DNA from: an uncultured Verrucomicrobia subdivision 3 bacterium
GTDB taxonomy: Bacteria > Verrucomicrobiota > Verrucomicrobiia > Limisphaerales > UBA11358
DNA: 49,118 nucleotides
Assembly: GCA_903833055.1 (NCBI GenBank)
Contig: CAILDU010000070.1
Location: 1-49,118 of the forward strand
Direction of reading: 5' to 3'
The translations under genes were made by a program, and so were the position numbers. The notes under the pieces are model-generated. The model was given only the letters and a program-made list of their open reading frames with translations, was not told where the DNA came from and ran no database searches. Shown here in pieces: positions 3,880 to 46,673 of the stretch (position 1 is its first letter; each line of letters begins with the position of its first letter).

Positions 3880-5298
3880 CTAGTGGCGCAACAACGAGAC
3901 GCCAAGCTTCAAAAGTTTCTGCACATCGGCATCGGACTTGGCCTCGGCGTAAATGCGTAAAACGGGTTCCGTGCCGGAGCCGCGTAACATCAGCCACGTC
4001 GAATCTTCCGCGACAAACTTTACGCCGTCGCGCGCATCCACTTTGACCAACGGCGAACGGAGAAGTTTTTGGGGCGGATTCGTTTTAAGAAATTCCATGA
4101 GCGCGGCGCGTTTCGCCAATGGATACTGGGCGTCGTAACGGTCGTAACGATGCGGACCAAATTCTTTTTCCAGTTTCGCGTAAATTTTATTTACGGAAAC
4201 TTTCTCCATCGCCAGCATCTCCAGCAAAAACAATCCGGCGGCAATTCCGTCGCGTTCGGGAATGTGATTGGCGAAACCGACCGATCCGCTTTCTTCCGCG
4301 CCAAAGAGCGCGCCGGGCTTCATCATTTCCGGCGCGATGAAACGGAAACCGATGCCGACTTCCGTGAGCGGCAAATTCCACGCGGCGCACATTTTATCCA
4401 CCATCGCCGTCGTGTTAAAAGTTTTGGTCACCACGCCGCGCCCGCCGCGATTGCGAACGAGATGATGCAACAATAACGCAATGACTTGCTGGTTCGTCAG
4501 CGGATTTCCGCGACCATCCATCGCACCTATGCGGTCGGCATCGCCGTCGGTGACGAGACAAATATCGTGCGGATTCTTTTTTAACTGTGCACCGCCGAGC
4601 GCGTAATTTTTCGGCAACGGTTCGGGACAAATGCCGCCGAATAAAATATCGTGCGCGCCGTTGAGCGTCGTGACTTTGCAATTCGTTTTGGCGAGCAGTG
4701 TTTTAAAAACGCCCGCACCGACGCCGAACAATGCATCATGCGCGACACGGAGTTTGGATTTAGCGATGAGTTTGAAATCCACCAGTTTTTTTATCGCCGC
4801 AAAATGCGCCGGACGGATGTCGGCAGTTTTTAATTTTAAATTTTTAGTTTTTAGTTGCAGCGGATTCTTGTCCAAAAGTTTTTCCACAGCCTTGCACGTC
4901 GCTTCATCACTGCTGCCGCCGAAGTGCGATTTCAGCTTGAAGCCATTGAAGATTGGTGGATTGTGGCTGGCGGTAATCATCACGCCGCCGACCGCGCCAA
5001 GATTTTTTACGGCGAAGGAAATACACGGTGTCGGCGTCGGTTCCGGCGTGAGGACAGCTTCAAAATTATTTCCGGCAAAAACTTCGGCGGTGATTTGCGC
5101 GAAACGGTCAGAGAGAAAACGGCGGTCGTAGCCGATGATGACTTTTAATTTGTGATTGAAGATTTCGGATTTCGGATTTTTGGTTTCCGATTGCCAATAG
5201 TCGGCGGTCGCCTGCGCGACGCGGGCGACGTTCGCAAAGGTAAAATCTTCCGCGATGATCGCGCGCCAGCCGTCGGTGCCAAATTTAATTTGGCTCAT
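3880..5298 (-). CDS. Phosphoglucomutase/phosphomannomutase
   Basis: The 472-residue alpha-D-phosphohexomutase moves a phosphate between C1 and C6 of glucose or mannose. I start it at MSQIKFGTDGWRA (5298). A longer upstream reading is possible, but it only overlaps rpe and lacks family sequence. All four family loops are present: TASHNPP (phosphoserine Ser111), the metal loop DGDADR, the sugar loop GAEESGSVGF, and RGSGTEPVLRIYAEA for phosphate binding. Its ATG overlaps the rpe TGA (ATGA), so translation is coupled. Two stretches look foreign to the family: residues about 37-51 (SETKNPKSEIFNHKL) and about 147-159 (LQLKTKNLKLKTA). Both are encoded by low-complexity repeat DNA found elsewhere in intergenic positions. 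The substrate (glucose versus mannose) is not resolved. Confidence 0.92.
   Translation of the reverse strand: MSQIKFGTDGWRAIIAEDFTFANVARVAQATADYWQSETKNPKSEIFNHKLKVIIGYDRRFLSDRFAQITAEVFAGNNFEAVLTPEPTPTPCISFAVKNLGAVGGVMITASHNPPIFNGFKLKSHFGGSSDEATCKAVEKLLDKNPLQLKTKNLKLKTADIRPAHFAAIKKLVDFKLIAKSKLRVAHDALFGVGAGVFKTLLAKTNCKVTTLNGAHDILFGGICPEPLPKNYALGGAQLKKNPHDICLVTDGDADRIGAMDGRGNPLTNQQVIALLLHHLVRNRGGRGVVTKTFNTTAMVDKMCAAWNLPLTEVGIGFRFIAPEMMKPGALFGAEESGSVGFANHIPERDGIAAGLFLLEMLAMEKVSVNKIYAKLEKEFGPHRYDRYDAQYPLAKRAALMEFLKTNPPQKLLRSPLVKVDARDGVKFVAEDSTWLMLRGSGTEPVLRIYAEAKSDADVQKLLKLGVSLLRH
4826..4857 (-). repeat. 32-base AT-rich dispersed element inside the hexomutase gene (family D, copy 1)
   Basis: Read on the minus strand it begins CAACTAAAAACTAAAAATTT and ends AATTAAAAAC. 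It aligns with the intergenic copy at 6017-6048 (same length, few mismatches) and with a shorter copy at 6103-6127. It is translated as LKTKNLKLKT within the hexomutase. Confidence 0.75.
5158..5190 (-). repeat. GATTTCGG-type word repeat inside the hexomutase gene
   Basis: The + strand shows GATTTCGGATTTCGGATTTT followed by TGGTTTCCGA, a 7-base word (ATTTCGG) in two tandem copies plus degenerate copies. It encodes SETKNPKSEIF in the N-terminal domain, just before the conserved IIGYDRRF strand. The base composition differs sharply from the surrounding coding DNA. Confidence 0.6.
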
Positions 5299-6102: not shown

Positions 6103-6127
6103 CAACTTAAAACTAAAAATTAAAAAC
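6103..6127 (+). repeat. AT-rich dispersed element, intergenic (family D, copy 3, shorter)
   Basis: It reads CAACTTAAAACTAAAAATTA followed by AAAAC on the plus strand. It is the inverted partner of copy 2 and lies six bases from the stop codon of the histidine kinase gene. Together, copies 2 and 3 occupy about half of the 6012-6133 gap; the remainder shows nothing recognisable. Confidence 0.7.
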
Positions 6128-6133
6128 GGAAAA

Positions 6134-9100
6134 CTAATTCGAGTCGGTGTCGAGGCAGGTGCGGATGGTTTTGGTGAGCGTCTGCGGCAGATAAGGTTTC
6201 TGCAAATACTGGATGCCGGGGTCGAGCTTGAAATCTTTGCCGAGCGTATCTGCGCCGTAACCACTGGTGAAAATCACTTTCATCTTCGGATTGTCTGCCC
6301 AGATTTTTTCCGCGACTTCACGTCCGTTCATGCCGCCGGTCATGATGACATCGGTGAAGACGAGTTTGATTTCGTTTTTATATTGCGCCCAGATTTGCAG
6401 CGCGCTGGGGCCGTCCACGGCTTCAAAAATACGGTAGCCGTGGCGGCGGAGTTCGCGGGAAACAAAGTCGCGCAGATCGCGTTCGTCTTCGACGACGAGA
6501 ATGGTTTCATTACCGCCGCGTTGACGAAATTGCGTCTCGGCATTTTCCGGCGCGGCCACGGGCGCGTCGGTCGCGGGCAGAAAAACGTGAAAGGTCGTGC
6601 CCTTATCCAGCACGCTATCCACCTGCACCCAGCCGTGATGCTGTTTGACGATGCCGAAAACCGTGGCGAGACCGAGGCCAGTGCCTTTGCCGAGTTCCTT
6701 GGTGGTGAAGAACGGCTCAAAAATGCGCGCCATGTTTTCCGGCGGAATGCCGCAGCCGGTGTCCGAGTGGCTGATGCAGACGAAACTTCCGGGACGGGCA
6801 TCCAGCACCGAGGCGGCGTAGGTCGCGTCAATTTCCCGGCGGCTCACGCGGATGGTTAGCTGCCCGCCGCGCGGCATCGCGTCACGCGAATTGACCGAGA
6901 GATTCAACAAAACTTGTTCCACCATGCCGGGGTCGGCTTCCACAACGGCGGACTCGCCACTGAAATTAATTTGCAGCGTCACGTCCTCGCCGAGCAACCG
7001 GTCAATCATTTCGGACATGCCGCTCACGAGTTGGTTCAAGTCAATCGGACGCGGGCTGGCGACTTGCTTGCGGCCGAAGGCGAGCAGTTGTCGCGTGAGG
7101 CCGGCGGCGCGTTCGGACGCCTGCTTGATCTGTTGTGCAGAAACCAGCGCCTTGGGATCCAGCGGCTGCATGGTGAGCAACGTGGCGTGGCCGAGGACAA
7201 CGGTGAGAATATTGTTGAAGTCGTGCGCGATGCCGCCGGCGAGCTGGCCGATGGCTTCCATCTTCTGCGACTGGCGCAACTGCTCTTCCAATTTTTTCTG
7301 CTCGGTGATGTTGCGGAACAAACTTAACAACAACCGCGGTTTGCCGCCGAGCTCGACGTAGGAATCGGTGATTTCAAAAGTCACCGCACGCCCGTCGTGC
7401 AGCAAGAAATCTTTCGCGCGCTTGCCGGTCAGTTTGCCGGACTGGAAATTTTCGCGGTGCGCCAGGAGCATTTTTTCCCAATCCGCGTGTCCGTCGTAAA
7501 TGATCGTGAATGGTTTGCCTTCCAGTTGGCGACTTGGCAGTCCAACCAAAGTGCAGAACGCTTCGTTTACCGCCACAATGCTGCCGCCCTCATCCGTAAG
7601 CCGCATGCCGTCGAGGGAATTGTCCCAGACGGAACGAAATAAAGTTTCCGAACTGCGCCGCGCCGTTTCCACCGCAAGCCGCTCGGTGATGTCGCGAACG
7701 TGAAACAGCAGCGCCGGCTGGCTTTCAAACTCCACGCGCACCACGCGAATTTCCACCGGCACAGCGCGACCGTCCGCGCGGCGGCTTTCGCTTTCAATCC
7801 ACGTAATCTGACCGTTCGCCAGCTTGTGAAATTCTTCCCGGGTTTTCTCGCGACGCTCGACCGGCACAAGTTCTTCAATGGCATTTTTACCCACCAACCA
7901 GTTGCGCTCCACGCCGTGCAACGCGCATGCCGCGCGGTTAGCATCGAGCACATTGCCCTGTAAATCTTCTACGAAAATGGCATCCGGCGAATTCTCGAAC
8001 AATTCGCGAAACCGCTTCTGGCTATGGCGCAATTCGTCCTCGGCGCGAATGCGTTCAAGCGCGCCGCTGCACTGGTCAGCCAAAGTTTGCAGCGTGTGCA
8101 AATCCGCTTGCGTGTAACTGCCCGACATCCGGCTCTGAATGAACAGCACGCCGATGACGATTTCACCTTTGCGGATTGGCGCAATCATCGTCGTGCCATC
8201 TTTATCACCCGTCTCGTCCGCAGAAATCAATTCCGCCCCGCGCGCGATGACGCGTTGCACGAGCGCGTTCGCCGTCTTTGGCTGCGGCGACGCAGGAATT
8301 TCGACACGCTGCCCTTCGATGGTGGTGATGGTTAGGAGCGAAACCACTTCGTCCTTTTCTGAATCAAACAAATCCAGCGCAAAATCGTCCCACCGAAATA
8401 ATTCATCAGCCGCCTCGCAGATGAACATTCCAGCCGTGGACGGAATGCTCACCGCGCTCAACTGATGGCTCAACTTGCCGAAGACTGAATTGTGATGCGC
8501 CGTCCGGCGGCGATCCGTTACATCCGTCGCCATCGTCAGCGCGCACAACCGCCCGCGAAAAGCCAGCGGCGTCCAGACTACTTCCATGTCCATCGCGCGT
8601 CCGCTCTTATGCCGATGCCGCCACACGATGCCCTGACTCTCGGCGTCCCAGACGGAATTATTATCATGGCGATCCCGCTCCGGCACGCGGAGATCCACGA
8701 GCGTCATCGTCAGAAATTCTTTTTGGCTGAATCCGTAATGCGTGATGGCTGATTCATTGACTTCAACAATCGCCAGTGTTTCCAAGTCAAAAACCCACAT
8801 CGGGTGCGGGTTGCCATGAAAGAGCAGCCGGTATTGTTTTTCGCTCTGGCGCAAATCGGATTCCGCCAGTTCGCGCCGCAACCGTTCCGCCGCCTCCGCC
8901 ACCGCGCGCAAAATGGACGACGGCAACCGCTCGCGGTTTTGTTTGAGCACGTAATCCGTCGCGCCCGCCTTGAGACTTTCAATCGCCGCCAATTCGCCAA
9001 TCGTGCCGGACAATAAAATGAATGGCGTCGTCGGAAATTTTGCGCGCACCAATCGGAGTGCCTCAATGCCGGTGAAATCCGGCAGTCGGAAATCCGCCAG

Positions 9101-10730: not shown

Positions 10731-10810
10731 GAACCACTGAAAATAGCCCAGCCTTTCAAGGCTGGGTAAAACGTCATCGGAAATAAATAAGTCCCGTTAG
10801 GGACGGCAGA
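10731..10810 (+). repeat. Double-hairpin dispersed element, copy C1
   Basis: It contains the GAAAATAGCCC lead, a hairpin CCCAGCC..GGCTGGG around TTTCAA, a roughly 20-base spacer, and a second small hairpin GTCCCGTTAGGGAC. It aligns with the reverse complements of 10820-10895 and 13519-13595. It lies just after the arabinanase stop, so it may end transcription there. Confidence 0.75.
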
Positions 10811-10902: not shown

Positions 10903-13449
10903 TTACGGCCAGAGACGCACGCGATAGAAGCGCTGGCTGTTCGTGCCAATGGCATCCGTAGTGAAAACGGAATTACTGGTAGCGGTGATGGGACTGCCGA
11001 GGTCCAGCCAGATGGGCGCGGCGAGATTGGTGGCGCATTGCAATTGATACGTCTGGTTGGACACCGCGCCCCAAGTGAATTGGTAGAGACCATTGCTGGC
11101 CGTGAACGCGGGCGTGATGGGCGGCAACTGCACGTTCACCGCGACCACGCTGCTCGTGACGCTGCCGGACGCGCTGGTGACGATGACCGAATACTGATTG
11201 CTTGCACTACTCACCGCGAGATTCGACACGGTGAAGGTTGGCTTATCCGCATAATCCATATACGCCAGCTTGCGGATGCGGTTGTTGCCGGAATCGGCAA
11301 AACAAAGGTTTCCCGCTGCATCAAGCGTAATACCATAAGGCGCTGAAAAAGTGGCAAGGTTCGCTGAACCATTATCCCCAGAGAATCCCTGAACACTTTG
11401 ACCGGCGATGGTGTTGATGATGCCATTCGTGCCTATCTTCCGAATGCGATTGTTACTTAAATCCGAGATAAATAAATTTCCAGTCGAATCCACGGCCATC
11501 CCAAAAGCAAATGACAACGATGCAAAATAGGCATAATAGCCATCATCCGAAAAACCAAAGTTTGCCGGCTGGTTAGCAATGGTGGTAATGATGCCATTCG
11601 TTCCTACCTTGCGAATACTCGTATTGCTATCACCAATATAAAGATTTCCCGTGGCGTCCAAGCATACCGAATATGGCGACACGGCTGTGCTGGTGGCAGC
11701 AACATTGTAATCAGGAGAGCCTAGGCTAGAGTGTCCATTTCCGGCGTAGGTGGTGATGATGCCGTTCGTATCAATTTTGCGGACGCGATTATTAAATCTG
11801 TCCGCCACGAATAAGTTTCCCAACCCATCCACGGCCACGCCATACGGTCGGTTCAATTTTGAATTCGTCGCGGCGACATTATCGGCGGAATAACCAGCGA
11901 TGCCTGTGCCCGCCACGGTAGTAATGATGCCGTTCGTATCTATTTTACGGATGCGCTGATTTTGATAGTCAGAGATAAAAAGATTTCCGGCTAAATCTAC
12001 CGAGACTCCGTTTGGCCGATTCAAACTGGCATTGGTGGCCGCACCGCCATCTCCTGAGAAAGCCGGAATGCCGTTGCCCGCCACAATGCTCAACATCCCA
12101 TTGGCATCCATTTTGCGGACGACATTGTTGTAATAGTCCGTAATGAAAAGATTGCCTTGCTGATCTATCGCCAATCCCCAAGGCACATCAAGCGCCGCAT
12201 TGGTTGCCTGAATATTATTCGCAACCGCCTGACCAACTACCGTGGAGATGATGCCGTTGGTAATTTTGCGGATGCGGTTGTTGGCCGAATCAACAACAAA
12301 CAAGTTGCCGGCAGAATCTGAAACCGTGCTACTGGGATAAGCCAGATAGGCATTGGTGGCGAAACCGCCATCACCGGAAAAACCATTCGTGCCGTTGCCC
12401 GCGACCGTAGTAATGATGCTGTTGGTGATTTTGCGGATGCAATGACTGCCGATGTCGGCGATGAAAACATTTCCTTTGGAATCCACGCTGACTCCGTTTG
12501 CCTGATTTATCTTGGCCGTATTAGCATTGCCTCCATCGCCGGAATAGCCTTGAGTTCCATTGCCCGCAATTGTGGAAATGATTCCACTCGCATTGACTTT
12601 ACGGATGCGAAAATTAGCTGTGTCAGCGATATAGAGATTTCCCGCCGTATCAATGGCCACCCAAGTAGGATTGTTTAATTTGGCGCTTGTGGCAGCAGAG
12701 CCATCGCCTAAAGAGCCTCCACCACCGGCCACAGTTGAAATGATTCCGCTGGCATTGATTTTGCGGATGCGAGAATTGTAAGTATCGGCAAAAAACAAAT
12801 TGCCAGACGTGTCCACCGCCAGTCCTCCTTGTGGCAAGTTGATTCTCGCATTGGTTGCCTGACCTCCGTCACCAGAAAATCCCTGATACGCCATGCCTAT
12901 ACCAGCGTAGGTCGTGATAATGCCATTGGTATCCACCTTGCGGATGTAATTATTCCAAGTGTCCAAGATGAACAGGTTTCCATTCGTGTCCACTGCGACT
13001 GCTGACGGGTTGGCCAAACTAGCATTGGTTGCCGGGCCGCCGTCACCGGCATAAGTGTAGCTACCACTTCCGGCTACAATCGTGGTCACACCGTTGGTAG
13101 CCACTTTACGGATGACGTTGTTTACAGTATCGGCAATGAACAAATTACCGGACGAATCAAACGCGGCGCCTGATGGCACACCTAAAAAAGAATTCGTCGC
13201 TTGCAAGTTGTTGAACAGATTCCCGCCCGCCACGGTGGTGATGATGTTGTTCGGCAGGTTCGTGCCGTTCAACAGCCATTGGTAAGTCAACGGCCCAACG
13301 CCCGTCGCCATCACGCTGAAAGTGGTATTGCCGCCCAAGAAAACCGTCTGATTCACCGGCTGGTTGGTGATGACGGGTTGCGCGTTGCCGGTGAGCGCAA
13401 GGAACAGCCCCAGCCCAATAACCATAATTTTTCCCAAGGCAGATTTCAT
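10903..13449 (-). CDS. Secreted NHL-repeat protein with a split Ig-like domain
   Basis: The 848-residue protein has a signal peptide (ends LTGNAQ). Residues about 24-66 (VITNQPVNQTVFLGG...LTYQWLLNGTNLPNN) are the first half of a bacterial Ig-like domain. Twelve NHL-type blades follow, each with GNLFIADxxNNRIRKV, GIITTVAG and GFSGDGGxATNAxL. The second Ig half then appears (FTVSNLAVSSASNQYSVIVTSASGSVTSSVV), followed by a C-terminal module (YQFTWGAVSNQTYQLQCATN) ending FYRVRLWP. The propeller, enough for two six-bladed rings, thus looks inserted into an Ig loop. The function is unknown; such proteins are exported and may bind carbohydrate or protein. The tail resembles a shared C-terminal module of exported proteins in this group. 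The gene is flanked on both sides by C-type repeat elements. Confidence 0.88.
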   Translation of the reverse strand: MKSALGKIMVIGLGLFLALTGNAQPVITNQPVNQTVFLGGNTTFSVMATGVGPLTYQWLLNGTNLPNNIITTVAGGNLFNNLQATNSFLGVPSGAAFDSSGNLFIADTVNNVIRKVATNGVTTIVAGSGSYTYAGDGGPATNASLANPSAVAVDTNGNLFILDTWNNYIRKVDTNGIITTYAGIGMAYQGFSGDGGQATNARINLPQGGLAVDTSGNLFFADTYNSRIRKINASGIISTVAGGGGSLGDGSAATSAKLNNPTWVAIDTAGNLYIADTANFRIRKVNASGIISTIAGNGTQGYSGDGGNANTAKINQANGVSVDSKGNVFIADIGSHCIRKITNSIITTVAGNGTNGFSGDGGFATNAYLAYPSSTVSDSAGNLFVVDSANNRIRKITNGIISTVVGQAVANNIQATNAALDVPWGLAIDQQGNLFITDYYNNVVRKMDANGMLSIVAGNGIPAFSGDGGAATNASLNRPNGVSVDLAGNLFISDYQNQRIRKIDTNGIITTVAGTGIAGYSADNVAATNSKLNRPYGVAVDGLGNLFVADRFNNRVRKIDTNGIITTYAGNGHSSLGSPDYNVAATSTAVSPYSVCLDATGNLYIGDSNTSIRKVGTNGIITTIANQPANFGFSDDGYYAYFASLSFAFGMAVDSTGNLFISDLSNNRIRKIGTNGIINTIAGQSVQGFSGDNGSANLATFSAPYGITLDAAGNLCFADSGNNRIRKLAYMDYADKPTFTVSNLAVSSASNQYSVIVTSASGSVTSSVVAVNVQLPPITPAFTASNGLYQFTWGAVSNQTYQLQCATNLAAPIWLDLGSPITATSNSVFTTDAIGTNSQRFYRVRLWP

Positions 13450-13518: not shown

Positions 13519-13595
13519 TCGGTCGTCCCTGCGGGACTTGAAATCTTACGGAGTTACCCCGGCGTTAAAACGCCGGGCTATTTTCAGAGGTTCCG
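13519..13595 (-). repeat. Double-hairpin dispersed element, copy C3
   Basis: On the plus strand GTCCCTGCGGGAC and CCCGGCGTTAAAACGCCGGG are two perfect hairpins separated by about 20 bases, ending GCTATTTTCAGAGGTT. The order and spacing match C1 and C2. It lies upstream of the NHL gene start, so the NHL gene is bracketed by members of one family. Confidence 0.78.
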
Positions 13596-13613
13596 CCGGA
13601 ACCGGGCATCTTC

Positions 13614-13640
13614 CTTCGCGCATTTGCGTCTTTGCGTGAG
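13614..13640. repeat. CTTTGCGN octamer tandem, half element (family A)
   Basis: Three 8-base words (CTTCGCGC, ATTTGCGT, CTTTGCGT) are followed by GAG. The element ends five bases from the stop codon of the DnaJ-like gene, read on the opposite strand. Similar tandems with inverted arms occur at 30343, 31853 and 37462. Confidence 0.65.
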
Positions 13641-13644
13641 AGTT

Positions 13645-30342: not shown

Positions 30343-30407
30343 TCTCACGCAAAGACGCAAAGTTTGAAGCAGCAGATTTCTTTGCGCCTTTGCGTCTTTG
30401 CGTGAGA
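30343..30407. repeat. Perfect 20-base inverted repeat of CTTTGCGN octamers (family A)
   Basis: The left arm TCTCACGCAAAGACGCAAAG (30343-30362) is the exact reverse complement of the right arm CTTTGCGTCTTTGCGTGAGA (30388-30407). A further CTTTGCGC word lies just inside the right arm. The right arm ends on the base before the folB stop codon. It lies in the convergent comEC/folB gap, so it could work as a bidirectional terminator. Upstream of it, 30286-30342 shows nothing recognisable. Confidence 0.85.
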
Positions 30408-31844: not shown

Positions 31845-31852
31845 GAAATTGA

Positions 31853-31949
31853 TTTAACCGCAAAGAGCGCAAAGAACACAGAGAAAAATTTCGGGGAGGT
31901 TGAAGTAATTTGATTTCTCTTTGTGTTCTTTGCGCTCTTTGTGGTTAAA
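31853..31949. repeat. Long inverted repeat of CTTTGTG/CTTTGCG words (family A) at a divergent junction
   Basis: The left arm 31853-31886 (TTTAACCGCAAAGAGCGCAA, then AGAACACAGAGAAA) is complementary to the right arm 31914-31949 (CTCTTTGTGTTCTTTGCGCT, then CTTTGTGGTTAAA), with a 2-base indel and one mismatch. The loop is about 27 bases. It fills nearly all of the gap between the HAD-Nudix start and the pseudouridine synthase start, where both promoters should be. Confidence 0.85.
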
Positions 31950-31958
31950 TTTTTTGAA

Positions 31959-36684: not shown

Positions 36685-36891
36685 ATGAAATTGACCAACG
36701 ACAACTATCTCATTTTGATTGGCACAAAAAAATTCACCGAACGCTATCACCGTGACAAAACCGGTTGGTTGAAGGTTTCTGCGCGTGGCCGAACGTTTCG
36801 GATGACCGCTGAACAGGTTTTGAACCACATTCTGCCTGTTCTCGCCGACATCAAACCAAGCCTGACCATCAAAGTCGAATACCAAGGTTAA
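36685..36891 (+). CDS. Small protein of unknown function, coupled to pabB
   Basis: The 68-residue product begins MKLTNDNYLILIGTKKFTER and ends SLTIKVEYQG. I recognise no family. It looks like a small soluble alpha/beta protein (a beta hairpin, a FRMTAEQVLNHILPVLADI helix, a final strand). Coding is supported by the intact frame between two genes, the 17-base gap after the LOG-type gene, and the TAATG overlap in which its stop shares a base with the pabB start. Translational coupling suggests co-expression with pabB, but no function can be given. Confidence 0.65.
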   Translation: MKLTNDNYLILIGTKKFTERYHRDKTGWLKVSARGRTFRMTAEQVLNHILPVLADIKPSLTIKVEYQG

Positions 36892-38399
36892 TGCGCCCGC
36901 TCATCCAAGAAATCCCAACCACGCACACGCCCGAATCGCTCATGGAGCAATTGCGGATTGCGGATTGCGGATTGCGGATTGTTTTGCTGCGGACGACACA
37001 GTTTGATTCGCCATCCGCGCGCTATTCCTTCGTCACGGCGAATCCATTTTTAATTTTCCAATCCTTCGGCTCGCGTTGTGAAATCAGTTTTCCAAACTCC
37101 CAATTACCACCTGCCAGCTCCCAAACTCAATTCGGTAATCCGTGGCATCTGCTCGACGCGCTCATGGCGCGTTACGAATTACTCGATGAAATTCATTCGC
37201 CCTTTCCGCTCGGCGGCGCGTTCGGTTATTGGGGCTACGACCTGAAAAATTTCACCGAACCCAAACTCCCGCGCCGCGCCGTCAACGATTTGGAACTTCC
37301 CGATTGCCACGTCGGTTTCTATGACAGCCTCGTGGTCTTCGATCATCAGCTTGGAAAAGTTTTCATCGTTTCCACCGGCCTGAACGCCGATGGTTCGCGC
37401 ACAGAATCACGCGCAAAGGCGCAATTGGAATTTTGGAAAAATCGGATTCAAGACCAGGAAGTTTCACGCAAAGCCGCAAAGCCGCAAAGCACGGATTCTC
37501 TTTGCGACTTTGCGGCTTTGCGTGAGATTTCATCGAACCTTACGCGTGACGAATTTATTTCAAAAGTTCAACGCGCACAGCAATACATCCGCGCCGGTGA
37601 TATTTATCAGGTCAACCTGTCGCAACGATTGACGGCGCAAGCCGATTTCAACGGCTGGAAAATGTTTGAAAAATTGTCCATCGTCTCCCCTGCTCCGTTT
37701 TCTGCGTATCTCGATTGCGATGGTGGGAGCCGGCACTGCCGATTTGAAATCGCGTCGTCCTCGCCGGAACAATTTTTACGCATGAGCGGCGCGCACATTG
37801 TCACGCGCCCGATTAAAGGCACGCGCCCGCGCGATGCGGATGCGACGCGCGACGCGCAACTCGCCTACGAATTGCAAACCTGCGCGAAGGAGCTGGCCGA
37901 GCTGGTGATGATTACCGATTTGCTGCGAAATGATTTGGGGAAAGTTTGCGAATACGGTTCCGTGCAAGTGCCGGAACTCGCCAAGCTGGAAAAATTCGCG
38001 CAGGTGCAGCATCTCGTCTCCACCGTCGAAGGCCGTTTGAAAAATGACGTGACGCATTTTGCCGCGTTCGCGTCGTGTTTTCCCGGCGGCAGCATCACCG
38101 GCGCGCCAAAATTTCGCGCGATGGAAATCATTGACGAACTCGAACCGATTTCGCGCGGTGTTTATTGCGGCGCGATTGGCTATTTAGGTTTCAACCGCGA
38201 GAGCCAGTTGAACATCGCCATCCGCACGGCGGTTTGCGCGGACGGAAAAATTCATTTCAACGTCGGCGCAGGCATTGTGGCTGATTCCAATCCGGCGGCG
38301 GAATATGAAGAGACGTTGGCGAAGGCGCGTGGATTTTTGTCCGCGCTGAAAATTACGTCGCGACAAGTGGAAACCAGCGAACGGCAAAAAATTGTTTAA
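36891..38399 (+). CDS. pabB: Aminodeoxychorismate synthase component I
   Basis: The 502-residue enzyme makes 4-amino-4-deoxychorismate for folate. It is assigned to PabB rather than TrpE because the active-site motif is PIKGT (residues 307-311, nucleophilic Lys309), where anthranilate synthases have PIAGT. Other chorismate-binding marks are YIRAGDIYQVNLSQRL, ELAELVMITDLLRNDLG, CFPGGSITGAPKFRAMEIIDELE and FNVGAGIVADSNPAAEYEET. At least three stretches are repeat-derived: residues about 21-31 (LRIADCGLRIV), about 67-82 (PNSQLPPASSQTQFG), and about 191-213, which is exactly a 66-base inverted repeat. A fourth (DGGSRHCR, residues 277-284) is suspicious. The reading frame remains open and the motifs intact, so it is probably functional. 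The stop overlaps the convergent phoU stop. Confidence 0.93.
   Translation: MRPLIQEIPTTHTPESLMEQLRIADCGLRIVLLRTTQFDSPSARYSFVTANPFLIFQSFGSRCEISFPNSQLPPASSQTQFGNPWHLLDALMARYELLDEIHSPFPLGGAFGYWGYDLKNFTEPKLPRRAVNDLELPDCHVGFYDSLVVFDHQLGKVFIVSTGLNADGSRTESRAKAQLEFWKNRIQDQEVSRKAAKPQSTDSLCDFAALREISSNLTRDEFISKVQRAQQYIRAGDIYQVNLSQRLTAQADFNGWKMFEKLSIVSPAPFSAYLDCDGGSRHCRFEIASSSPEQFLRMSGAHIVTRPIKGTRPRDADATRDAQLAYELQTCAKELAELVMITDLLRNDLGKVCEYGSVQVPELAKLEKFAQVQHLVSTVEGRLKNDVTHFAAFASCFPGGSITGAPKFRAMEIIDELEPISRGVYCGAIGYLGFNRESQLNIAIRTAVCADGKIHFNVGAGIVADSNPAAEYEETLAKARGFLSALKITSRQVETSERQKIV
36951..36981 (+). repeat. Heptamer GGATTGC tandem inside pabB
   Basis: ATTGCGGATTGCGGATTGCG continues GATTGTT, that is, four near-perfect copies of a 7-base word. 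It encodes LRIADCGLRIV near the N-terminus, between conserved parts of the chain. Confidence 0.75.
37091..37132 (+). repeat. CCAA(A)CTCCCAATT-type word repeat inside pabB
   Basis: TCCAAACTCCCAATTACCAC, then CTGCCAGCTCCCAAACTCAA, is made of related 10-11-base words. It encodes PNSQLPPASSQTQ, which has no counterpart that I know in PabB proteins. Confidence 0.55.
37462..37527. repeat. 66-base CTTTGCGN inverted repeat inside pabB (family A, in frame)
   Basis: The left arm 37462-37489 (TTTCACGCAAAGCCGCAAAG, then CCGCAAAG) pairs with the right arm 37500-37527 (CTTTGCGACTTTGCGGCTTT, then GCGTGAGA) with only two mismatches over 28 positions. The element is 66 bases (22 codons), so the frame is kept. 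The same element type occurs in intergenic gaps at 30343 and 31853. Confidence 0.85.
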
Positions 38400-45256: not shown

Positions 45257-46648
45257 ATGCTCCTGGTATTCACGGTCATTTTGGTGGCGTTGATTTTCAC
45301 CTACACCAACGGTTTTCACGACACCGCCAACGCCATCGCCACGGTGGTGGGCACCAAAGTCCTGACGCCGCGCCAGGCCATTCTGCTGGCAGCCGTCACG
45401 AATTTGTTTGGCGCGTTTTTCGGTCTCGCCGTGGCCAAGACGATTTCCAGCGGGCTGGTGGATGCCCATTTCATCACGCAAGGCGTCCTCGTTTGCGGCC
45501 TGTTTGCGGCCATCGGCTGGAATTTGCTGACGTGGTATTTCGGTCTGCCTTCCAGTTCCAGCCATGCGCTCGTCGGCTGCCTCGTGGGCGCCGCCATCGC
45601 TTCGGCGGTCTGTTTGAACGACGTCAAGCCGCTGACCGACAAGGACGGAAAAACGGTTTCCATCTGGAGCGCCATGAAATGGACCGAGGTGAAAGATAAG
45701 AAGGAAAAAAAATTGGTTCCCGCGTCCGCCGAAGTCATGGCGGCCATGGGCGATTGCCTGAAGACAAATGGCACGCATACGATTCTGCTGGGCACCAACA
45801 AAGTGCAAGTCGTCGCGTTTTGCGGCCGCGCGGCGGTGGTGGAATCCGTGCTGAAGCCGGGCGCAGATAAGAGCGGTCTATTTTATAAGGTGGTCATTCC
45901 CATGTTCACGTCGCCGCTCTTTGGCTTTGTCGGCGGATTTCTCTTCATGCTGATTTTATATTTCCTGCTGCGTAAGTGGAAGCCGATGACCGTCAGTCGC
46001 GTCTTCGGAAAATTACAATTGTTCAGTTCAGCTTACATGGGTTTCGGCCACGGCATGAACGACGCCACGAAATGCATGGGCATCATCACCCTCGCGCTCG
46101 TCGCCGCCACCACGTCCGGCGTGTTTGTAGATCTGCCTTCGTGGGCAAGTTTTCTCGTGACCAAGGAAGGTTCCAATCCGTTCGCCCTCACACTCGGAGA
46201 TAATATGATGGCCATGTTGCCCAACTTTCTTCAATTCGGTTACATGCCGAATCCGGCCGATGTGAAAAGCCAAGGTATTCCGAACTGGGTCGTGATTCTG
46301 TGCGCGCTAACAATGGCGGCGGGCACCGCTGCCGGTGGCTGGCGCATCATAAAGACGATGGGGCACAAGATGGTGAAACTTCAGCCGGTTCACGGTTTCG
46401 CGGCGGAAACCACGGCGGCAACCGTTCTCGCCATTACCGGTTCGCTGGGAATGCCGGTTTCCACCACGCACGCCATCAGCACCAGCATCATGGGCGTAGG
46501 TTGCGCTAGGCGTTTCAGCGCGCTCAAACTGGGTGTCGTGGAGCGTATCGTTTGGGCGTGGATTCTCACCATTCCCGTCACCGCGGGCGTGTCGTTTTGT
46601 CTGGTCTGGGCCTGCCTTAAGCTAGGCATCCTGCACTTGGCGACCTGA
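45257..46648 (+). CDS. Low-affinity inorganic phosphate transporter, Pit family
   Basis: The 463-residue membrane protein carries both Pit family signature repeats: FTYTNGFHDTANAIATVVGTKVLTPRQA near the N-terminus and AYMGFGHGMNDATKCMGIITLAL in the second half, plus GLPSSSSHALVGCLVGAAIA and GMPVSTTHAISTSIMGVG. About ten hydrophobic helices are spread through the chain. A hydrophilic central loop of roughly 90 residues (about 119-210, LNDVKPLTDKDGKTVSIWSAM...) is longer than in E. coli PitA. Family members carry phosphate (as metal phosphate) with protons or sodium. With DUF47 directly upstream it forms the standard pair. The stop is followed by a CTTTGCG repeat and the convergent nadA gene. 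Confidence 0.94.
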   Translation: MLLVFTVILVALIFTYTNGFHDTANAIATVVGTKVLTPRQAILLAAVTNLFGAFFGLAVAKTISSGLVDAHFITQGVLVCGLFAAIGWNLLTWYFGLPSSSSHALVGCLVGAAIASAVCLNDVKPLTDKDGKTVSIWSAMKWTEVKDKKEKKLVPASAEVMAAMGDCLKTNGTHTILLGTNKVQVVAFCGRAAVVESVLKPGADKSGLFYKVVIPMFTSPLFGFVGGFLFMLILYFLLRKWKPMTVSRVFGKLQLFSSAYMGFGHGMNDATKCMGIITLALVAATTSGVFVDLPSWASFLVTKEGSNPFALTLGDNMMAMLPNFLQFGYMPNPADVKSQGIPNWVVILCALTMAAGTAAGGWRIIKTMGHKMVKLQPVHGFAAETTAATVLAITGSLGMPVSTTHAISTSIMGVGCARRFSALKLGVVERIVWAWILTIPVTAGVSFCLVWACLKLGILHLAT

Positions 46649-46657
46649 CCCCCATCC

Positions 46658-46673
46658 CTTTGCGCCTTTGCGT
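46658..46673. repeat. Two CTTTGCGN octamers (family A half element)
   Basis: CTTTGCGC and CTTTGCGT are in tandem, ending five bases before the nadA stop codon read on the opposite strand and nine bases after the pit stop. The element sits exactly in the convergent gap, as at 30343. Confidence 0.6.

Follow-up and report, generated by a model that had tools for sequence, protein, structure and literature searches.

The locus analysed here lies in a 49,118-nt stretch of DNA (the window), in which pabB encodes a folate-pathway enzyme, component I of aminodeoxychorismate synthase. Its product has two Pfam domains, Anth_synt_I_N at residues 11–159 and Chorismate_bind at residues 219–478, a TIGR00553 (pabB) score of 347.7 bits against a cut-off of 328.4, and E. 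coli PabB (1k0e) as its top match in the PDB. Between the two domains, the gene contains a palindrome built from octamers.

36891–38399, + strand: pabB, aminodeoxychorismate synthase component I (502 aa), the host gene; identified by Pfam, TIGR00553 and PDB match
37458–37531, no strand: CGCAAAGN-octamer palindrome in pabB, in frame, about residues 191–213 (VSRKAAKPQSTDSLCDFAALREIS); seen in arm pairing, RNA fold and the AlphaFold2 (AF2) loop
37458–37489, + strand: left arm, with a GAAGTTTCACG end and three perfect CGCAAAG units
37500–37531, − strand: right arm, with three perfect CTTTGCG units and a CGTGAGATTTC end

An in-frame palindrome in the middle of a coding sequence

An earlier note on this DNA described a 66-base palindrome in frame within pabB, composed of two 28-base octamer-built arms with two mismatches, encoding residues ~191–213 and forming a strong mid-gene hairpin in the mRNA. 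Each of these points is borne out. Direct comparison of the core arms (37462–37489 and 37500–37527, 28 nt each) gives exactly two mismatches, the residue numbering is correct, and ORF 36891–38399 runs across the palindrome with no frame interruption and the chorismate-binding part follows, as the note had also stated. The symmetry reaches further, to 37458–37489 and 37500–37531, giving arms of 32 nt that are 91% complementary around a 10-nt loop. All six units are perfect CGCAAAG/CTTTGCG. The predicted RNA fold of 37440–37550 has an energy of −51.3 kcal/mol, far beyond chance: the mean for dinucleotide shuffles is −27.7 (z −7.3), and 0 of 200 shuffles were as good. The element is inverted end to end, meaning that terminal inverted repeats, as in a MITE, are present. 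This copy has a short T-tract. An Rfam search with the palindrome returned nothing over the gathering score, only sub-threshold chance matches to miRNAs.

How can such a sequence be read through? Repeated in tandem, CGCAAAGN has no stop codon in any of the six frames, whatever the base at N. Since eight does not divide by three, every frame passes through a single octapeptide cycle, RKxAKxQx in one direction and LCxFAxLR in the opposite one; three 8-nt units restore the frame. About 46% of all 8-mers are likewise stop-free when repeated, so the property is helpful rather than special. The complete window element is open in four frames, as compared to a shuffle average of 1.9.

An AlphaFold2 model built from 46 aligned sequences has a pLDDT of 88 and a pTM of 0.89; an earlier model with 29 close homologues (pLDDT 48) was too poor for use. 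Residues 191–210 are the poorest long stretch inside the modelled protein (pLDDT 55 for residues 191–200 and 49 for residues 201–210, with 202–207 the sole segment below 50), and the element residues, 191–212, form the sole long low-confidence loop, in which short low-confidence helices are drawn. This loop lies between helices 172–187 and 219–234. The insert is thus modelled in a loop that is compatible with the fold, between the two PabB domains. E. coli PabB is ~25 residues shorter in the linker region.

Two other parts of pabB are repeat-like. Near the gene start, an in-frame tandem array of a 7-mer (GGATTGC) at 36949–36985 encodes LRIADCGLRI, in a region ~5 residues longer than in most congeners. 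A repeat-like segment of the N-terminal domain at 37088–37135 encodes PNSQLPPASSQ, a loop that has variable repeat-like strings in congeners and is much longer in L076 and L077.

A dispersed family of octamer palindromes

The pabB palindrome has relatives elsewhere in the window, where CGCAAAGNCGCAAAG (up to 2 mismatches) has 15 matches against 1.6 expected, and 0 of 100 shuffles had as many.

30343–30407, no strand: full copy of the CGCAAAG family, intergenic, between convergent ORFs; arms 100% complementary
31852–31950, no strand: palindrome between genes, of a related 9-mer type (CGCAAAGAG.. / ACACAGAGA) and not of the pabB octamer
13606–13641, no strand: half copy, right-arm type only
46636–46672, no strand: half copy, right-arm type only

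The earlier note had placed two intergenic palindromes with the pabB element. One of these, at 30343–30407, is indeed of the same type; the other, noted at 31853–31949, is a real palindrome but of the related 9-mer type. The two half copies were absent from that note. The window also has nine to ten degenerate ~168-nt repeats at 11270–13253, flanked by an inverted repeat (10731–10766 and 13558–13593), and an AT-rich inverted repeat (4825–4857 and 6103–6135) with 85% complementary arms 1.2 kb apart.

In the 2.75-Mb genome, the double unit CGCAAAGNCGCAAAG occurs 45 times exactly, versus 0 for a reversed control; when a single mismatch is allowed, the counts are 100 and 2. CGCAAAG double units are found in 42 of 49 congeners. 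ORF structure and identifiable neighbouring genes, used in place of full gene calling, put nearly all of the 35 copy clusters resolved in the genome outside conserved ORFs, and pabB is the sole clear mid-gene case. A scan of 84,980 species genomes found near-identical palindromes at 117 or more loci in at least nine phyla; those among the matches listed are Acidobacteriota, Bacteroidota, Verrucomicrobiota, Chloroflexota, Planctomycetota, Thermodesulfobacteriota, Myxococcota, Spirochaetota and Pseudomonadota. The consensus common to the phyla is approximately AAAAAnRTCTCACGCAAAGN...CTTTGCGTGAGAYnTTTTT, with the flanks adding a symmetric extension. The A- and T-tracts outside the arms (L095–L211) have the shape of a two-way terminator, and for this reason copies between genes could stop transcription in both directions. 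In-frame copies are seen in unrelated protein genes besides pabB: in an EcfA-like ABC protein of a Spirochaetaceae member (L116), the copy separates the two ATPase parts and lies just ahead of the second ABC (ATPase) domain, and in a planctomycete protein (L101) it precedes DUF7008. A literature search of open papers for the DNA motif and the peptide signatures found no description of the octamer family.

The dispersed copies bear on whether the pabB palindrome could have originated locally, by tandem duplication and template switching with no dispersed family involved. The octamer periodicity and the 7-mer array elsewhere in pabB fit such an origin, but the TCACG...CGTGA ends and the unit match dispersed copies here and in the nine or more phyla, making it highly improbable.

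What moves these elements? Two of the six Y1 transposase genes in the window's genome lie within ~1 kb of a CGCAAAG copy. Around the 117 matches listed (0.79 Mb) there is one Y1 gene, 5 kb from a copy, and adjacency gives mobilisation by a RAYT no clear support. The search, which covered Y1 transposases, found no mobilising enzyme for the CGCAAAG family. At L240 and L244, Y1 transposase genes of the window's genome adjoin GTAG-tagged hairpins; this looks like an ordinary REP–RAYT arrangement, separate from the CGCAAAG family. Direct repeats were not seen by eye in the flanks of 80 copies, which have inverted A/T tracts instead, and the target-site duplication that the earlier note had suggested looking for at the edges of the pabB element is not visible.

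Probable turnover of palindromes in the PabB linker

The linker (residues ~183–215) was compared across ~60 PabB orthologues (63 in the hairpin count) from the genus and other families of the order, which were aligned and arranged by a tree from which the linker had been left out. Its length ranges from 23 to 80 residues, and at least nine palindrome types, labelled by eye from motif counts, are found in it, including CGCAAAG, CACAGAG, CCCTCACCCC... and GTAG-tagged REP dimers; the linkers also show CGCCGAG, CCCTCACCCCGGCCCTCTCCC, GGAGCGCCGG, GCGTGATGCGTG, GGGACGCG and other hairpins.

CGCAAAG palindrome: L008, L010, L034, L071, L074
Single remaining CGCAAAG arm: L018, L019
CACAGAG palindrome: L009, L021, L086; decayed in L015
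CCCTCACCCCGGCCCTCTCCC palindrome: long in L066, L068, L069, L070, L078; short in L020
GGAGCGCCGG palindrome: L024, L075
GCGTGATGCGTG palindrome: L073, L213
GGGACGCG palindrome: L033
GTAG-tagged inverted REP pairs, read from the sequence: L022, L091
Other palindrome: G059

Because related species carry other, mostly unrelated, palindromes at the same spot, the linker reads as a repeated landing place for small repeats. Parsimony gives at least 18 state changes when only strong hairpins are counted, and 25 when decayed copies are included, on a tree in which many forks are weakly supported. For example, the nearest relative by core identity (L009) has CACAGAG in place of this genome's CGCAAAG. 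The paralogue TrpE serves as a control: its linker has 26 residues in all 20 genomes checked, and none of those linkers has a hairpin. Copy-rich genomes tend to have the corresponding family in pabB, with p values of 0.0008 for CACAGAG and 0.007 for CCCTCACC that ignore kinship; for CGCAAAG, there is no significant link between genome copy number and linker occupancy (p 0.39).

Does this diversity amount to evidence for insertion? The earlier note had proposed in-frame insertion of a dispersed palindrome, and the dispersion of the family, the other families at the site in congeners and the structure model all favour this. The exact gap at residues 191–213 of sister PabB proteins that the note had regarded as proof is not found among congeners; there is no clean empty site, because palindrome-free congeners mostly have linkers of 23–28 residues, as compared to 33 here. 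The pattern it had set against insertion, with all relatives having the segment in a diverged, non-palindromic form, does not hold in the congeners.

One of the orthologue assemblies, L212 (G059:C134), has at ~524–560 a linker palindrome with a central NN and a frame break, which looks like a hairpin collapsed in assembly. The window copy is free of N and its frame is open, and comparable inserts occur in congeners from separate assemblies. An assembly artefact is the least credible of the explanations, and almost certainly wrong.

A different possibility is that the hairpin is under selection, by pausing translation or shaping the pabB mRNA between the domains. The coding-strand hairpin is very stable, and about one-third of orthologues have strong hairpins. 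However, 40 of the 63 orthologues have a decayed hairpin or no strong one, L018 and L019 retain a single arm, and the N positions between units are mismatched in both the pabB copy and L010, leaving selection on the hairpin very unlikely.

The age of the copy can be judged against L010, the closest same-family orthologue by silent sites. Four-fold sites of the two genes are 69% identical (random, 32%), so about a quarter of neutral sites are expected to have changed on this lineage, equivalent to ~11 of the 42 unit bases. Because 0 of the 42 depart, our reading is that the pabB copy probably arrived or was rewritten after the split from L010.

Rewriting raises the possibility of a single entry. 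In such a history, one ancestral octamer palindrome entered once and was rewritten in place, either through replication errors templated by the hairpin or through gene conversion in which dispersed copies were the donors, and other families replaced it occasionally. The perfection of the pabB copy despite diverged silent sites is consistent with this, as is the codon position that CGCAAAG and CACAGAG copies share across much of the genus. On the other hand, the CCCTCACC, REP-dimer, GGAGCGCC and GCGTGATG palindromes bear no relation to the octamers and lie at slightly shifted codons, and conversion between CGCAAAG and CACAGAG has little common sequence to act on. A single entry is a serious contender but the less likely account.

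We consider it likely that small palindromic repeats have instead inserted into the linker in frame and replaced one another there, in the manner of Rickettsia palindromic elements (RPEs), the site being one that tolerates them. The 66–74 bp segment would be a copy of a non-autonomous, dispersed, MITE-like palindromic repeat that acts like RPEs, and it would have joined pabB in frame where the linker connects the N-terminal and chorismate-binding domains. The linker may tolerate almost any stop-free insert; copies there would then survive selection, and those elsewhere in genes would be lost. Arms of CGCAAAGN octamers would help through their freedom from stops. As the genus evolved, different palindrome families would have refilled or overwritten the site many times; their copies would have arrived by insertion akin to transposition, or by conversion templated by other copies, and would be nearly neutral for the enzyme. 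The hotspot may then reflect selection for tolerance, not targeting. It seems rather unlikely that the linker is a preferred landing or replacement site at which a resident hairpin attracts or templates the next palindrome, with unrelated families swapping in frame.

Relation to known repeats and significance

What is known, and what is new? First, in-frame palindromes that add tens of residues to loops of housekeeping-gene products have been described from Wolbachia, from Methanocaldococcus jannaschii and, under the name of RPEs, from Rickettsia (PMC10969869, PMC2996958). The CGCAAAG element resembles RPEs in being palindromic, dispersed, in frame and located in a loop, a likeness of arrangement. 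It differs from all three in its unit sequence, its shorter length and its mostly intergenic distribution in this genome, and also in that many families occur at one site of one gene, in a host that is neither a member of the Rickettsiales nor an archaeon. Second, intragenic REPs are known, chiefly from Opitutus terrae, likewise a verrucomicrobium, and in two Xanthomonas species nearly the same position in recB is occupied by different REPs (PMC3733652). GTAG/CGTC REPs are also small dispersed hairpin repeats, some of them intragenic, and REP dimers with a GTAG tag occupy the PabB linker of L022 and L091; the CGCAAAG family, in contrast, has neither a GTAG nor a CGTC tag, and its consensus ends are RTCTCACG...CGTGAGAY. 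Third, PARCELs are palindromic coding repeats that have spread horizontally (PMC2996958), but unlike the CGCAAAG element they form amphipathic domains, 25 residues long and in tandem, in membrane-associated proteins. Since in-frame palindromes and intragenic REPs are known, the kind of element has precedents; new are the octamer family and the hotspot itself, a single linker recurrently occupied by many palindrome families.

The case draws attention to an octamer palindrome family that is common to at least nine phyla. Coding palindromes were initially presented as a feature particular to Rickettsia. In the environmental bacteria studied here, a single enzyme linker appears to record many in-frame arrivals from several palindrome families, with the TrpE paralogue of the same genomes as a built-in control. 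The PabB linker may thus be regarded as a natural assay of selfish repeats becoming protein sequence.
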